Positions 102-10,290 of a stretch of 10,290 nt of DNA are shown here, one piece after another. The first letter of the stretch is position 1. Each line of letters opens with the position of its first letter. Origin of the DNA: Lachnospiraceae bacterium (GTDB lineage: Bacteria > Bacillota > Clostridia > Lachnospirales > Lachnospiraceae). Both the position numbers and the translations under genes were made by a program. The stretch is from NCBI GenBank assembly GCA_900765975.1, contig CAAFTS010000145.1, positions 1 to 10,290 of the forward strand, in the 5' to 3' direction. The notes below the pieces were generated by a model that was not told the DNA's origin, ran no database searches, and was given only the letters and a program-made list of their open reading frames with translations.

Positions 102-458
102 GTGAATGAGGTTAATTGCATGTCTGAGGAAGAACTTCGGGCACATTTGAAGAAGATGGAGAAAAATAAAGAGGAATTAAAGTTTCAAGAACAGAGAGTT
201 TGGAAAGAAGAAGAGGAGGAAGATGAGCAGATTTACGCTGCACTGGTAGGACTAGAACGTATGCGGGAGTATGCGGGAGAAAATGAGAAGATAATACTCT
301 TGATTGATGAGCAGAAGAGCATTTTAGATACCATAAGATTGAGAAAAGCGGAATTTGCTGATGAATTTAAAAGACAACTACAGAATAAAAATAGTCGAAT
401 TGAAGAAGAAATAGCAAAAATTGATCAGAGAATAAGGGAAATTCTTATGAGTGGGTGA
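102..458 (+). CDS. Small highly charged helical protein, function unknown
   Basis: A 118-residue cytosolic protein, extremely rich in Glu, Lys and Arg, with no signal peptide or membrane segment. Residues about 8-45 and 88-115 look like coiled-coil helices, separated by a less charged stretch (about 44-80), so a helical hairpin is likely. The GTG start is chosen because AAAGGAGG (88-95) sits 6 nt upstream; the in-frame ATG at 120 is too far away. The GTG overlaps an ATG-TGA (100-105) that closes a reading frame open from the left window edge, so coupling to an upstream gene is possible but unproven. In size and character it resembles small helical partner proteins of LXG-type secretion loci (DUF3958-like), but no LXG toxin or secretion gene lies next to it, so this is weak. 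I do not recognise the family. Confidence 0.6.
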   Translation: MNEVNCMSEEELRAHLKKMEKNKEELKFQEQRVWKEEEEEDEQIYAALVGLERMREYAGENEKIILLIDEQKSILDTIRLRKAEFADEFKRQLQNKNSRIEEEIAKIDQRIREILMSG

Positions 459-578: not shown

Positions 579-2888
579 CTAGTGTTTGGTGGGAAGAATA
601 CTTTTTGCCAGAGCAATTCCAGCTTGTGGATACAATTCCTGGATTTTTTGATATTTTTCTTCAATCAATTCAGGTTCATCTGCCCATATATCTTCATAAA
701 TTTTCAAGGCTTTTTTAAAATGGGTTTTCGCTTGTGAAATATTTGCAGTGATCAGGCAGATACTTCCAAGGGATTCCTGTACCTGGGCATAATCCAGACA
801 GTGGTTCGAATTATATTCTTTGATTATCTGTGCCAATTTCTGAAGAGCAGACAGGGCAAGGGCAGGTTCTTGCATTTCAGTTAAGAGGACAGCATAATTA
901 TTAATCTGAGGAATACTGTCATTAGTATAAAGAAGCTGGTATTGTTCTAAAAGAGAGATACCCATTTTCATGTGCTTTTTAGCCAGATCAAGCTGTCCGT
1001 TTGTTCGGTAAAGTCCTCCAAGATTGGAATGGAGGTTGGAAACCAAGTGGGCATTTTCTTTTGTGGTTTCTTTTATTTGAGCAAGGGCTTCTTTTTCTAA
1101 TTTTATCGCTTTTTCTGTTTTTGTTTCCATCGTTGCCTGATAATCCAATAGTAAGGCACGGTCAGATGCAGTCCCGTAAGTATTTGTTTTTATAAAATGC
1201 TGTAGTTCCTGAATGATTTTTTTCATACCCTTTTGATAGTGGTACTTCTCCATATATGGAAAAACATCTTCTAAAAATAACAGGTATTGGGGAATATCAT
1301 CCTTTTCAATGAATTGGATGATATTTTCTGTTGTCTGAAATAATTTTTTATAATAGCTAACTTCAATGCCATGCATCAAACATATTTTTTGCAGAGAATC
1401 CAATAACGTGTGGCTGCTTGTAACAGAAGGTGCGGTCTCGGAAACTGCAATTTCCTGAATCATTGGATGCAGAGAAATAGTATGCCGGAGACTTGACTGT
1501 ACAAAACCTGTCTCGATCAGATCATTCACGTCATTTAAAGTGGGCAGCTCCAGCCATTTGGAAAATATACGGGCAGAAATACCAGATGAAGGCATAAAAC
1601 ACATATTGCACATAATATCCTGCTGTTTCCGTGATAAGGAGTATAACGAAAACAGGGTATGGATATGGTTGTAATAGGTGGCTTTTTTGCTCTGACCATC
1701 TTTCATTACTTTAATCTTATCTTCATTATGAAGAGAAGCCTTTTCCTCTTGAAGTTTTATCAATAATTGCTCTGGAGTTAAAATTCCATTTTCCAGAAGT
1801 TTGGCTGCCAGTTCGACAGCAAAAGTATGGTAGTGTACAGTTTCTATGATTTTTTCTACGATTGCCCGGTGTTCCTCTGCTTCTGAATAAAATACAGATG
1901 TCAGTTGAAAAAGAGTGGCTATATCTTTTAGTTCTTTTAACTGAAAACTACAGTATTCAGACAGTTGGCTTCTGGTTGTAAATAAAACCCGGCAACGGTA
2001 TTTTAATACGACTGACAGGCAACTGTCCTGTGTGGATGTGACATTAAAATTGTCTATGATCAGCAGTGTATCAGATTTCAAAGAGCGTAAGAAACGGTTA
2101 TGTCTTTGAAAACGTTCCTGCTCACTGATTTCTGGTGGATCATCAATAAAATCCATGTCTGTGATATTTTGATATAGATTACCGGTGTATTCCATATAGA
2201 GAATATTGGTGTACTGTTTTCTGTATTGCTTTGCATAGGCTTTAGCAAGCTCGCTTTTTCCAATTCCGGCAATTCCATAAAGAAATATATGTCGGTTCTC
2301 TTCAAACAAAGTATGGAGTTCATCCAGTTCTTCTTCTCTTCCTAGAAAATGACGGCATGGTTTCGGGACTTCGCTGTCCATAATGTAATCCAGAACAATC
2401 GGAGATAGAACACCTCCTGCAATCAGTTTTTGATTTCTTGTATCACGTTTAATAAATTGCCGTTCCATACCAAAAGAAAGTACTTTTGCTAAAAACAACA
2501 GCCTTGAATCAGAAGGTTTATATAGAGATACAAGTTCCTGCTTTTTTGTATCCGAAATAGTATCGTCCTGCATGAATAACGTGTAAATGTCCTGTATAAC
2601 CATGTTGTAGTCTGCCATTAAGGGAAGTAAGTTTCGCTGAATGGTTGTTGCCAGTTTTTTCTGATTGCTGGGTTTTGCATAATATGAGGTTATTTTGGGA
2701 CTGATTTTTGCCTGTCCGGTTATCCAGCGGCAAATCAGACCATTATCCATAGAAAAATCTTCATTTATCGGATCATTCATAAAATCTTCAAATAATTCGT
2801 ATAAAAAATCAGGTTGGTTCATCTGATTGCTTTCACTGATTTGATTTTTTAGGCATGTGCTAATAGAAGAAAAATCACATCGTTCCAA
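579..2888 (-). CDS. STAND-family (NB-ARC-like) ATPase with C-terminal TPR repeats, SOS-regulated
   Basis: A 769-residue cytosolic signal-transduction ATPase. Residues 1-180 form a helical N-terminal region I cannot assign. FLGREEELDEL (181-191) is the typical entry to a STAND NTPase. Walker A is GIAGIGKS (205-212) and Walker B is LLIIDN (275-280). VLFTTRS (301-307) matches the sensor/RNBS-B position, FAVELAAKLL (356-365) replaces the GLPLAL motif, and LHPMIQEIA (473-481) resembles the winged-helix MHD motif. About 615-735 contains three TPR-like helix pairs. Such proteins oligomerise on ligand sensing by the repeats and then signal through the N-terminus. The start is TTG, supported by AAAGGAGGG (2896-2904) 7 nt upstream. 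Its promoter contains a LexA box, and the gene diverges from the recombinase cluster. It could be a regulator of the element or a defence NTPase; the sequence does not decide. No canonical effector such as TIR or protease is recognisable. Confidence 0.85.
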   Translation of the reverse strand: MERCDFSSISTCLKNQISESNQMNQPDFLYELFEDFMNDPINEDFSMDNGLICRWITGQAKISPKITSYYAKPSNQKKLATTIQRNLLPLMADYNMVIQDIYTLFMQDDTISDTKKQELVSLYKPSDSRLLFLAKVLSFGMERQFIKRDTRNQKLIAGGVLSPIVLDYIMDSEVPKPCRHFLGREEELDELHTLFEENRHIFLYGIAGIGKSELAKAYAKQYRKQYTNILYMEYTGNLYQNITDMDFIDDPPEISEQERFQRHNRFLRSLKSDTLLIIDNFNVTSTQDSCLSVVLKYRCRVLFTTRSQLSEYCSFQLKELKDIATLFQLTSVFYSEAEEHRAIVEKIIETVHYHTFAVELAAKLLENGILTPEQLLIKLQEEKASLHNEDKIKVMKDGQSKKATYYNHIHTLFSLYSLSRKQQDIMCNMCFMPSSGISARIFSKWLELPTLNDVNDLIETGFVQSSLRHTISLHPMIQEIAVSETAPSVTSSHTLLDSLQKICLMHGIEVSYYKKLFQTTENIIQFIEKDDIPQYLLFLEDVFPYMEKYHYQKGMKKIIQELQHFIKTNTYGTASDRALLLDYQATMETKTEKAIKLEKEALAQIKETTKENAHLVSNLHSNLGGLYRTNGQLDLAKKHMKMGISLLEQYQLLYTNDSIPQINNYAVLLTEMQEPALALSALQKLAQIIKEYNSNHCLDYAQVQESLGSICLITANISQAKTHFKKALKIYEDIWADEPELIEEKYQKIQELYPQAGIALAKSILPTKH

Positions 2889-2937: not shown

Positions 2938-2966
2938 ATTATAACACGAACAAATGTTCCGGACAA
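2938..2966 (-). promoter_or_regulatory. Sigma-A promoter of the STAND ATPase gene
   Basis: Read on the minus strand, TTGTCC (2966-2961) and a perfect TATAAT (2943-2938) are separated by exactly 17 bp. The -10 lies about 50 nt upstream of the TTG start, leaving a short leader. The spacer is occupied by a LexA-type operator. Confidence 0.75.
2947..2960. promoter_or_regulatory. LexA (SOS) operator
   Basis: CGAACAAATGTTCC fits every position of the Bacillus/Gram-positive LexA box consensus CGAACRNRYGTTYC. It lies entirely in the 17-bp spacer between the -35 and -10 of the STAND gene, where bound LexA would block RNA polymerase. Repression in normal growth and induction on DNA damage is the inferred behaviour. 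The consensus is established for Bacillus and shared widely in Firmicutes; the host LexA is not in the window. Confidence 0.78.
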
Positions 2967-3039
2967 TAGGAATTGATACTGTATAGGAAGAAAATGAATC
3001 TTAAAAACTCAATCTGCGGTCAATTTCAATTCAATGTGA

Positions 3040-3067
3040 TTGGTGCAGAATAATTTTAGAATGTAAT
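3040..3067 (+). promoter_or_regulatory. Candidate promoter for the tnpW-recombinase cluster
   Basis: TTGGTG (3040-3045) and TGTAAT (3062-3067) have a 16-bp spacer and lie about 100 nt before the TnpW-like start. Both hexamers are imperfect matches in AT-rich DNA, so this is only the best candidate I found for a rightward promoter in the divergent region. Confidence 0.25.
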
Positions 3068-3165: not shown

Positions 3166-3333
3166 ATGAATACGTTATTTGATTCTGTAGAAGTTCTGGA
3201 TACAAAAAAAGAAATCCAAAAAGAGAATGTAAGCTATGAACATGCAGGATATCAGATTCGAGTGCATTTTAATGGGGAAAAGACATTGATCCAGTGCATT
3301 CAGAATCTTACTGAACGAAAAATTGCAGGTTGA
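3166..3333 (+). CDS. TnpW-like small transposon-encoded protein
   Basis: A 55-residue protein. After a polar N-terminal tail, the core YEHAGYQIRVHFNGEKTLIQ followed by CIQNLTERKI resembles the short TnpW family found beside serine recombinases in Clostridia elements (a tyrosine-containing strand, V.VHF, then a helix with a spaced Leu/Ile pattern). The role of that family is not established; a recombination accessory or regulatory role is inference. ATG 3166 is chosen because AAGGAGG (3151-3157) lies 8 nt upstream; the reading frame stays open to 3106 but the earlier starts lack a ribosome site. The recombinase start is 76 bp downstream with no terminator between, so it is probably the first gene of that operon. 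The family call rests on my memory of the motif. Confidence 0.55.
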   Translation: MNTLFDSVEVLDTKKEIQKENVSYEHAGYQIRVHFNGEKTLIQCIQNLTERKIAG

Positions 3334-6588: not shown

Positions 6589-6640
6589 AGACTGCAAATT
6601 TTTTTACAGTAACTTTCCCCTAGTTATAATGAACACATGA
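6589..6640. other. Predicted right attachment junction of the element
   Basis: Between the recombinase stop (6588) and the first subtilase-like codon (6633) lie only 44 bp, with an in-frame TGA at 6630-6632. Reading on from 6633 gives THDGTSLIERF, an internal subtilase sequence. Crossover should fall near 6630-6640. Large serine recombinases usually leave only a 2-3 bp core, so the exact point cannot be read from one junction. I saw no convincing terminator here. Confidence 0.5.
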
Positions 6641-7547
6641 TGGGACTTCTTTAATCGAGCGTTTTCTGGATGATATTTCTAATTATTGGAAAAGTGTAAT
6701 CTGTGTGGGAAGTGGGAATGAAGGGACTAGCGCGGGACATACTGCGGGAAGGTTGACCGAGAATCGAGAGGAAGAAATTCAGTTGGGGGTGCAAAGTAAT
6801 GAGCCGGCGCTAAATGTGCAGATATGGAAATCTTATGTGGATGAGGTGGATATCTCCATCATCAATCCGTCGGGAGTACGAGTTGGACCCGTTCAAGAAA
6901 TTCTCGGGACACAGAGGTTTGTACTTGGCGGGACAGAAATTTTGTTGTATTACGGAGAACCAAGTCCATATAGTGTCCGACAGGAAATTTTCCTGGATTT
7001 TCTGCCAAGGCAATCTTATCTGGATGCGGGGGTGTGGCGCATTGTCTTAACACCACGAAAGGTGGTAGTAGGGGAGTATCAGATGTGGCTGCCGAGCCAG
7101 AGTACATTAAATGTGGGAACGGCATTTTTATTTCCAAATAGTAGTACAACATTAACCATTCCATCAACAGCTTTTCGTGTGATTACAGTAGGCGCTTACG
7201 ATGCGCTGACATTTACCTATGCAGATTTTTCCGGACGCGGACCCGTCAGTGGAATCTGGAAACCAGACTTGGCGGCGCCGGGAGTTCGCGTGACGGCTCC
7301 GGCAGCAGGCGGTGGATATACGGAGGTGACGGGGACTTCCTTTGCCACGCCGTTTGTGACAGGGGCGGCTGCGCTTCTGATGGAGTGGGGAATTGTAAAG
7401 GGAAATGACTTATATCTGTATGGGGAGAAAGTAAAGGCATATTTAAGAAGAGGGGCGAGACAATTGCCGGGATTTGAGGTGTATCCGAATAATCAGCTGG
7501 GGTATGGGGCATTGTGTGTGTGGGATAGTTTATCAAGCGAGCAATAA
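6633..7547 (+). pseudogene. 5'-truncated subtilase (S8), CspB-like, broken by element insertion
   Basis: From 6633 the frame reads THDGTSLIERF, then VICVGSGNEG (oxyanion-hole Asn region, 6696-6725), and much later GTSFATPFVTGAAALL with catalytic Ser codon 7338-7340. The roughly 205 residues between these motifs, against about 66 in subtilisin, fit the jelly-roll insertion known in clostridial CspB-type germination proteases. The N-terminal part with the prodomain, catalytic Asp and His is absent, and an in-frame stop lies at 6630. The longest formal ORF starts at GTG 6705, but that codon is inside the conserved VGSGNEG motif and has no ribosome site, so it is not a real start. The fragment is visibly more GC-rich than the recombinases. 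It should be inactive unless precise excision restores the gene. A germination role is not shown; many Clostridia carry several such peptidases. Confidence 0.82.
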
Positions 7548-9681: not shown

Positions 9682-9963
9682 ATGAATGTAATGCCGATTT
9701 CGGAACTGATAGATGAGGTTGCAGCAATCTGTAAAGCCAATGGTGTAAAACGGTTGGATTTATTTGGGTCTTTTGCGACAGGGACTGCAACTGATACCAG
9801 TGATATTGATTTTGTTGTATACGGATGTGAAGATATATTGAAATTAGAAGACGCATTGGAAGAGATTCTGACACTTCGTAAAATCGATATTTTTGATTAT
9901 GAAAATATCCATAACGAATTTTTGATGGAGGACATAAAAAAATATGGAAAGCAAATATATTAA
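9682..9963 (+). CDS. MNT-domain nucleotidyltransferase, MntA-like antitoxin
   Basis: A 93-residue minimal nucleotidyltransferase. GSFATGTATDTSDID gives the exact GSX10DXD signature (Gly29, Ser30, Asp41, Asp43), and Asp69 in KIDIFDY supplies the third metal-binding carboxylate. In characterised MntA-HepT systems this enzyme inactivates the partner HEPN RNase by adding AMP to a tyrosine. ATG 9682 is chosen because AAGGAG (9667-9672) lies 9 nt upstream; a TTG start at 9658 would put that ribosome site inside the gene. Its 3' end overlaps the HEPN gene by 20 bp, so the two are translationally coupled. An alternative is the HI0073/HI0074-type two-protein nucleotidyltransferase, whose biological role is less clear. 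Confidence 0.88.
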   Translation: MNVMPISELIDEVAAICKANGVKRLDLFGSFATGTATDTSDIDFVVYGCEDILKLEDALEEILTLRKIDIFDYENIHNEFLMEDIKKYGKQIY

Positions 9964-10290
9964 TCGTTACAATACGTTTTGTAAGAGCCTGAAAAATTTA
10001 GAAAAAAGTCGTACAGCAGATCCCAAAGCGGATTTTGTATTAGAGGCTACAGTGTTGAATTTTAATCTTACTTTTGATATTGCATGGAAAGTGATGAAAG
10101 ATATTCTTGTAAAGGAATTGGGAGTTCTGGATTTCCCTTTGGGGTCTCCGAGAGGAACTTTACAACAGGCATTTCAGAATGGCATCATTGATGATGACGG
10201 ATGGATGCGGATGTTGAAAGACAGAAATCAGTTGGCTCATGATTATGATGGAACACTTGCAACAAAAAAATTTCAGGTAATTATCGGAGA
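9944..10290 (+). CDS. HEPN/HI0074-family partner, HepT-like toxin (3' end cut by window)
   Basis: An open frame from ATG 9944 runs to the window edge: 115 codons, without a stop. The all-helical protein carries RNQLAHDY at residues 94-101, which fits the RX4HXY motif of HepT RNases exactly (Arg94, His99, and Tyr101 as the expected AMP acceptor). The flanking DWMRMLKD-like context (GWMRMLKD, 86-93) and DIAWKVMKDIL (45-55) match the nucleotidyltransferase substrate-binding family of HI0074. That family is usually about 130-145 residues, so only a short C-terminal piece should be missing. The start lies inside the MNT gene (20-bp overlap), and the preceding GATGGAGG (9924-9931) may serve as its ribosome site. 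Toxin activity is inferred from motifs and gene order only. Confidence 0.83.
   Translation, partial: MESKYINRYNTFCKSLKNLEKSRTADPKADFVLEATVLNFNLTFDIAWKVMKDILVKELGVLDFPLGSPRGTLQQAFQNGIIDDDGWMRMLKDRNQLAHDYDGTLATKKFQVIIG

Follow-up and report, generated by a model that had tools for sequence, protein, structure and literature searches.

A predicted LexA operator in the promoter of a STAND ATPase gene on an integrative mobilizable element of gut Lachnospiraceae, and its possible link to TCAAT-repeat promoters

The stretch of DNA analysed here (the window; 10,290 nucleotides, positions 1 to 10,290 of contig CAAFTS010000145.1, assembly GCA_900765975.1, from a Lachnospiraceae bacterium) carries a minus-strand gene for a STAND ATPase whose promoter encloses a 14-bp dyad of the LexA type. 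Divergent from this gene lies a second promoter, headed by three TCAAT repeats (array 1), that faces an operon for two large serine recombinases (Table 1). A first-pass annotation, made from the window's sequence alone, had read the dyad as a perfect LexA box and the ATPase as a stand-alone sensor made only after DNA damage. Its identification of the product as a STAND ATPase with tetratricopeptide repeats (TPR) is borne out by matches to the Pfam models AAA_16, NB-ARC, nSTAND1 and TPR_12 above their cut-offs. The protein consists of an N-terminal domain of unrecognised fold (residues ~1-150), an NB-ARC/AAA_16 region (~181-387) and a TPR end, that is, a P-loop nucleotide-binding domain followed by superstructure repeats, which is the architecture of a STAND NTPase.

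The promoter of the minus-strand gene, described in the first-pass annotation as TTGTCC and TATAAT separated by 17 bp, is present at 2966-2938. The box, however, does not fill the spacer, as had been stated, but occupies 14 of its 17 bp: the first 14 bases of the spacer are GGAACATTTGTTCG, which reads CGAACAAATGTTCC on the plus strand. Nor does it meet the consensus at every position. When compared with CGAACRNRYGTTYG, which we take to be the Gram-positive LexA consensus, 13 of 14 positions agree and the final base is C instead of G; a mismatch count against CGAACNNNNGTTCG likewise gives one mismatch, and the box is near-perfect rather than perfect. Because the box lies inside the spacer between −35 and −10, a repressor bound there would be expected to block the promoter.

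We scored the box with a matrix built from all 33 sites having at most two mismatches and lying within 300 bp upstream of recA and lexA in 11 Lachnospiraceae genomes; these genomes were reached through the loci of STAND relatives, and the window's own genome is not among them. LexA and RecA each exceed the family cut-off in all 11, and LexA-type sites precede recA in 11 and lexA in 10 of them. The window box scored 18.3, equal to or above 29 of the 33 training sites (range 12.7-20.1, median 16.8), and thus falls within the range of recA and lexA sites, a comparison that the first-pass annotation had proposed. The second-best site in the window scored 11.8. Among 300 order-1 Markov windows, none reached 18.3 and one reached 18.0 (maximum 18.2). 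Mismatch count alone was unremarkable: three sites in the window have two mismatches or fewer against 1.83 expected, and 51 of 200 shuffles contained at least three. In Blautia massiliensis (G001), 27 places lie within one mismatch of the box pattern, several of them plainly by chance. When these were ranked with a first matrix (27 sites, in which four of 20 lexA sites were omitted and L039 was read on the wrong strand), the STAND box came third. Only the site at 299239 and the one before recA ranked higher, and that of a second STAND copy followed in fourth place.

Conservation was assessed, also with the first matrix, in 29 upstream regions of STAND homologues (the window included, three being duplicates of others, and the starts in L095 and L097 approximate). 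A box of at least 12 bits within 300 bp was present in 23 of them, down to 30% protein identity, and 40 of 5800 shuffled upstreams reached that score. Its distribution follows identity groups: 19/19 at 65-100%, 0/6 at 55-58% and 4/4 at 30-33%. In the 13 relatives' loci with upstream DNA, the dyad is found in the same place while its surroundings have changed. Within the whole loci (~5 kb) of the 55-58% group, the best score was 14.6, inside the L092 gene. On a quick tree (21 rows, with L095 on a long branch of unsure placement), the distribution requires at least two changes of state. As a rough control we took seven further STAND genes whose similarity lies mostly in the nucleotide-binding domain; one of them had a site exceeding 12 bits, which lay inside its reading frame. 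The first-pass annotation had held that orthologues lacking the box would speak against LexA control; such orthologues do exist, but only in the 55-58% group, whereas the groups at and above 65% and at 30-33% retain the box throughout. Its statement that the protein is made only after DNA damage is too strong, given that six of the 29 upstreams have no box. We regard the box as real mainly because of its position and conservation, which are stronger evidence than the mismatch count, and the dyad looks like a true, if so far predicted, LexA operator of this bacterial family.

Array 1 points away from the STAND gene, the order being three repeats, 20 bp, TAGAAT and the recombinase operon. In 25 of the 29 homologue upstreams this array recurs, followed after exactly 20 bp by a −10-like hexamer; among the exceptions, L005 has one substitution, and L099 has a variant whose hexamer is one base off. 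A second array lies downstream of the STAND gene, on the opposite strand, before an operon for an actin-like protein (parM) and rep genes in L003 (at 8398), L007, L008, L011-L014, L133, L135, L138 and L140; it directly precedes RepA in G392 and mob genes in G273, and the distance to the hexamer is again 20 bp. In 15 loci, 20 arrays were found, compared with 0.05 expected per set (20 mononucleotide shuffles). We picked 30 promoter segments as distinct, excluding the variant L099 array. The hexamer 20 bp past the array invariably has T, A and T at positions 1, 2 and 6 (T-A-N-N-N-T); for the −35, the closest matches agree on average at 2.64 and 2.69 of 6 positions, versus 2.50 in random DNA. Because the −35 match is at the random level and the spacing to the −10 is fixed, the array promoter has the layout expected of one that requires an activator occupying the −35 region.

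Several loci depart from this arrangement. At L125:1451-1554 (G327), the LexA box and array 1 are intact, the STAND frame is gone and an insertion sequence-type transposase-like frame stands in its place. In the 32-33% homologues L096, L097 and L099, the LexA box is accompanied by other 11-bp-spaced repeats nearer the start codon (TTGAC-like in L099 and L097), suggesting that site and protein may change together. Small opposite-strand genes lie between array 1 and the recombinase at L172:2605-3532 (G162), and also in L010 and L013; a transcript from array 1 would have to read through them.

Table 1. Features of the window that bear on the STAND gene and its element, with predicted regulatory sites first.
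Feature	Position	Strand	Basis
Predicted LexA box, GGAACATTTGTTCG	2947..2960	−	Matrix score; same promoter position in 19/19 upstreams at ≥65% identity, window included
STAND gene promoter: TTGTCC (2966-2961), 17-bp spacer, TATAAT (2943-2938), TG preceding the −10	2938..2966	−	Aligned with 13 relatives
Array 1: TCAAT-N6-TCAAT-N6-TCAATG, 11-bp period	3009..3036	+	Pattern search
TAGAAT, −10 of the divergent promoter on the recombinase side; 20 bp past the array, no −35	3057..3062	+	Spacing of 20 bp in 25/29 upstreams
STAND ATPase, 769 aa, TTG start	579..2888	−	Pfam AAA_16, nSTAND1, NB-ARC, TPR_12 above cut-offs
Small open reading frame (ORF) of 55 aa that opens the recombinase operon	3166..3333	+	Present also in L001/L002 (100% identity) and L003 (95%)
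Large serine recombinase 1, 529 aa	3410..4999	+	Pfam Resolvase, Recombinase, Zn_ribbon_recom
Large serine recombinase 2, 530 aa	4996..6588	+	Pfam Resolvase, Recombinase, Zn_ribbon_recom
Right element end; L003 is similar up to 6637	6611..6637	+	Junction compared with L001-L003
Interrupted target gene: C-terminal part of a CspB-type S8 peptidase gene	6636..7547	+	Pfam Peptidase_S8, profile 159-288 of 288
ORF of 118 aa left of the STAND gene	102..458	+	No Pfam match; no tblastn match in L001-L014

The neighbourhood of the gene in relatives points to a mobile element. In B. massiliensis, both halves of one CspB-type S8 gene lie at ~3131373 and ~3152812, the N-terminal half comprising a CspB prodomain and the beginning of the S8 domain, and the C-terminal part in the window matching the second part of the profile. 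The ~21.4 kb between the halves hold the STAND gene, the recombinases, cargo, an actin-like protein and its small partner, as well as RepA_N, an IstB/DnaC-like ATPase and a MobQ relaxase (above cut-off). Because of the recombinases, the split gene, RepA_N, the actin-like protein and MobQ in G001, we assign the STAND gene, on sequence grounds, to an integrative mobilizable element (IME) of gut Lachnospiraceae. The window itself includes only the right junction, at the recombinase end; the relaxase was seen in the G001 element and not in the window, whose element would extend leftward as in its relatives. The ORF lists of L001 and L166, a portion of them profile-scanned, showed no conjugation machinery belonging to the element. 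The notion of a free-standing damage sensor was therefore rejected, since the gene sits on an IME beside recombinases and a conserved activator-type promoter array.

The S8 remnant in the window, read in frame from 6636, matches NCBIfam CspBA at 2e-67, which is below the cut-off. Genes of this CspB-type S8 (germination-protease-like) family are interrupted in the window, at L166:9538-10374 and at L001:1345-2256. Because the window's target is only 57-59% identical to those of L001-L003, the insertion target is likely to be a motif shared within the family. The 55-aa ORF that opens the recombinase operon has no Pfam or NCBIfam match, and the 118-aa ORF is probably cargo of the element. Cargo of the B. 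massiliensis element at L001:9435-14245 matches models for a radical-SAM peptide maturase and a lantibiotic-type ABC transporter below their cut-offs and is a probable cluster for a ribosomally synthesized and post-translationally modified peptide. Past the S8 and LPXTG genes of the window, a toxin-antitoxin-like pair (9682-10288) encodes a minimal nucleotidyltransferase and a substrate-binding (HEPN-like) protein.

Relatives of the STAND protein were found at 14 loci in Lachnospiraceae, two of them (Blautia massiliensis GD8 and B. schinkii) at 97% identity, and the genera with related elements include Blautia, Fusicatenibacter, Butyribacter and others. A search of viral contigs for the STAND protein gave no matches, that of plasmids a single 90-base match within a recombinase, and Rfam none. 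Phage records gave three matches, one of which covers 89% at 53% identity; this record (L015, MT839278.1) is a 4.4-kb unannotated 'Bacteriophage sp.' sequence from human faeces and may be a mis-sorted mobile element. A phage origin was rejected. The structure model of the protein has a mean pLDDT (predicted local distance difference test) of 83.2, with 6mfv_A as its best PDB match; Apaf-1, NRC1 and, weakly, Avs filaments are also matched, Avs structures being among the Foldseek rows. A second structural look covered mainly residues 403-762 and gave nothing firm on the N-terminus.

Which protein acts at the arrays was approached through their distribution in 397 Lachnospiraceae genomes. When a −10 was demanded, arrays occurred in 15 genomes (22 places), compared with none for the reversed pattern, and all 15 lie among the 38 genomes with a STAND match, a count that may miss genes because at most two candidates were scored per genome. 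Two genomes, G148 and G038, match STAND at 55% or more but have no array; in both the match is a fragment with stops. Without the −10 requirement, 29 genomes (49 places) had arrays, 18 loci being inspected individually, against eight matches in six genomes for the reversed control; 17 of the 29 have a STAND match, four have a correctly spaced array without STAND, and eight appear to be chance matches. We infer that STAND binds the TCAAT arrays and activates there. Part of the co-occurrence, which to that extent weighs less, reflects shared descent of adjacent DNA; the second arrays are more independent evidence because they lie kilobases away and differ in sequence.

The box, its position and conservation, the two arrays of fixed spacing, the missing −35 and the anatomy of the element are supported by the sequence. 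The reading that we favour, and to which we give somewhat better than an even chance, is that STAND activates excision and transfer of the IME through the TCAAT-array promoters and is itself repressed by LexA. In the undamaged cell, host LexA would occupy the box between −35 and −10 and keep the STAND gene repressed. DNA damage would activate RecA, LexA would cleave itself and STAND would be made, possibly requiring a second signal through its TPR end and ATP binding. STAND would then recruit RNA polymerase to promoters in which the −35 has given way to three TCAAT repeats that share a face of the helix and lie 20 bp from the −10. Excision would follow from one array promoter, which drives the recombinase side, and replication and transfer from the other, in front of the parM/rep or mob operon; the recombinases and rep/mob genes would be switched on together. 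Repression by LexA and its release in the SOS response are adopted because they are established for LexA, whereas the activation by STAND is deduced from the arrays.

A number of observations weigh against this model. Six of the 29 homologues, those at 55-58% identity, retain the array without the box, and L096 and L097 carry the box without the TCAAT pattern. G042, G331, G207 and G188 have array-like sites with the 20-bp spacing and no STAND gene; a family profile finds no STAND in G042, G331 or G188 and only a TPR stretch in G207. In G162, opposite-strand genes separate array 1 from the recombinase. No DNA-binding domain was detected in STAND. Its N-terminal model has a pLDDT of 59.5 and no PDB match at E 0.001 or better, and the N-terminal domain has no PDB sequence match. 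Pfam recognised no family, and no helix-turn-helix (HTH), in nine STAND N-terminal fragments, and no LuxR-type or SARP DNA-binding domain in these fragments or the whole protein. An XRE-type HTH, considered for the N-terminus because of a W-x-NG motif, was discarded after a profile comparison with ten XRE fragments gave 2.9% probability.

These points invite other explanations. A dyad that arose by chance, or that serves a repressor other than LexA, would agree with the ordinary mismatch count, the one consensus mismatch and the absence of the box from the 55-58% homologues, but seems very improbable for a site that scores as high as or higher than 29 of 33 recA/lexA sites and is kept while the flanking promoter diverges. 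For the arrays, one could suppose a role in partition and autoregulation, in which the ribbon-helix-helix-like partner of the actin-like ParM protein would bind them as its operator or centromere. The parC site of R1 has 11-bp repeats, and the TCAAT arrays share this period; in L133, L135, L138 and L140 the second array lies upstream of the actin-like gene and its partner, and a homologue of the partner (E <1e-40) was found in 13 of 16 STAND and array genomes tested. Arrays persist, however, in G392 and G078 without the partner, for which reason ParR-type sites were rejected as their sole explanation; G273 has only a 1.9e-4 match far away. Array 2 directly precedes RepA in G392 and mob genes in G273, and the fixed 20-bp spacing and missing −35 suit an activator better than a repressor. 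We consider this explanation quite unlikely, if less so than a chance dyad.

Two further proposals, each of which we hold to be unlikely and marginally less so than the partition sites, leave the arrays to some other regulator. If another activator, of the element or the host, binds them and STAND only modulates it as a co-activator or sensor partner, then the four genomes with arrays and no STAND and the lack of a detected HTH would be accounted for. Against this, of the four arrays in genomes without STAND, three resemble remnants, and no second regulator is conserved beside the arrays in the gene maps made, which were not exhaustive. Alternatively, STAND might be carried as cargo and act as an Avs/NLR-like sensor against phage or stress, its SOS control ensuring that it is made when phage or other damage strikes, with the arrays serving a different regulator of the element. 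The NB-ARC/STAND and TPR architecture and the resemblance of the model to Apaf-1, to NRC1 and, weakly, to Avs filaments are in line with such a role, as are weak PADLOC matches to mad8 (9.1e-05) and VakA (0.0025). The PADLOC matches, however, are limited to stretches around the P-loop, no effector domain was recognised by Pfam, N-terminal fragments included, and STAND stays beside array 1 in 25 of 29 upstreams while the neighbours change.

Returning to a LexA-repressed STAND activator, a more specific version can be formulated, which we offer tentatively and consider a little more likely to be wrong than right. The NLR-like STAND protein would be the master transcription activator of this widespread gut IME family and an AND gate, its supply set by LexA and its activity by a TPR-sensed signal; it would bind the TCAAT repeats through a DNA-binding domain of undescribed fold and control excision and transfer together. 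The LexA input would be modular, because the 55-58% relatives keep arrays without the box, having dropped that input or never had it. If LexA control of a STAND activator is true, then DNA-damaging drugs and gut genotoxins would mobilise elements in common commensals through a two-step switch, STAND/NLR-like ATPases would gain a role as mobile-element activators, and there would be two predicted promoters with a precise spacing rule.

Damage-released master regulators are familiar from other elements. In SXT/R391 (SetR-SetCD) and ICEBs1 (ImmR/ImmA), DNA damage inactivates an element-encoded repressor and mobilises the integrated element; here, in contrast, the host's LexA box would be used directly. 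STAND activators of the MalT/SARP type resemble the proposed one in combining an NTPase with a TPR-type sensor end and in having direct repeats in their target promoters, but their LuxR-type or SARP DNA-binding domain was not found here. Avs/NLR-like STAND defence proteins share the nucleotide-binding domain and sensor repeats; the present protein differs in having no recognised effector domain and in its link to mobile-element regulation. Among serine-recombinase IMEs of gut Firmicutes, Tn4451 (PMC5704250) and IME_Rho_tet (PMC12904643) have a serine recombinase, a mobilization relaxase and integration that disrupts a dispensable gene. The text on IME_Rho_tet contains no ParM, tetratricopeptide, ATPase or 'regulat', whereas a LexA-boxed STAND gene and TCAAT arrays are present here.

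Salmonella genomic island 1 (SGI1) offers the closest logic, with SgaDC, an FlhDC-like activator, in the place of STAND. In SGI1, sgaDC is under LexA repression through a box in its promoter, and its product activates xis, rep and traNGH (PMC9927553). Both elements are IMEs, and as in SGI1 a LexA-repressed master activator gene and a regulon spanning excision, rep and transfer are predicted here. SgaDC, however, acts in Enterobacteria, whereas the present system, known from its sequence alone, pairs a STAND ATPase with serine recombinases and 11-bp TCAAT triple repeats in Lachnospiraceae. With a different candidate activator and different arrays, the element is not a member of the SGI1 family. 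Searches of an open-access library yielded no paper on a LexA-controlled STAND gene or on these TCAAT arrays, and the first-pass annotation's description of the gene as an unusual LexA target is fair. A LexA-controlled IME activator is already known from SGI1, and what appears to be new here is the combination of a LexA-boxed STAND gene with TCAAT arrays.
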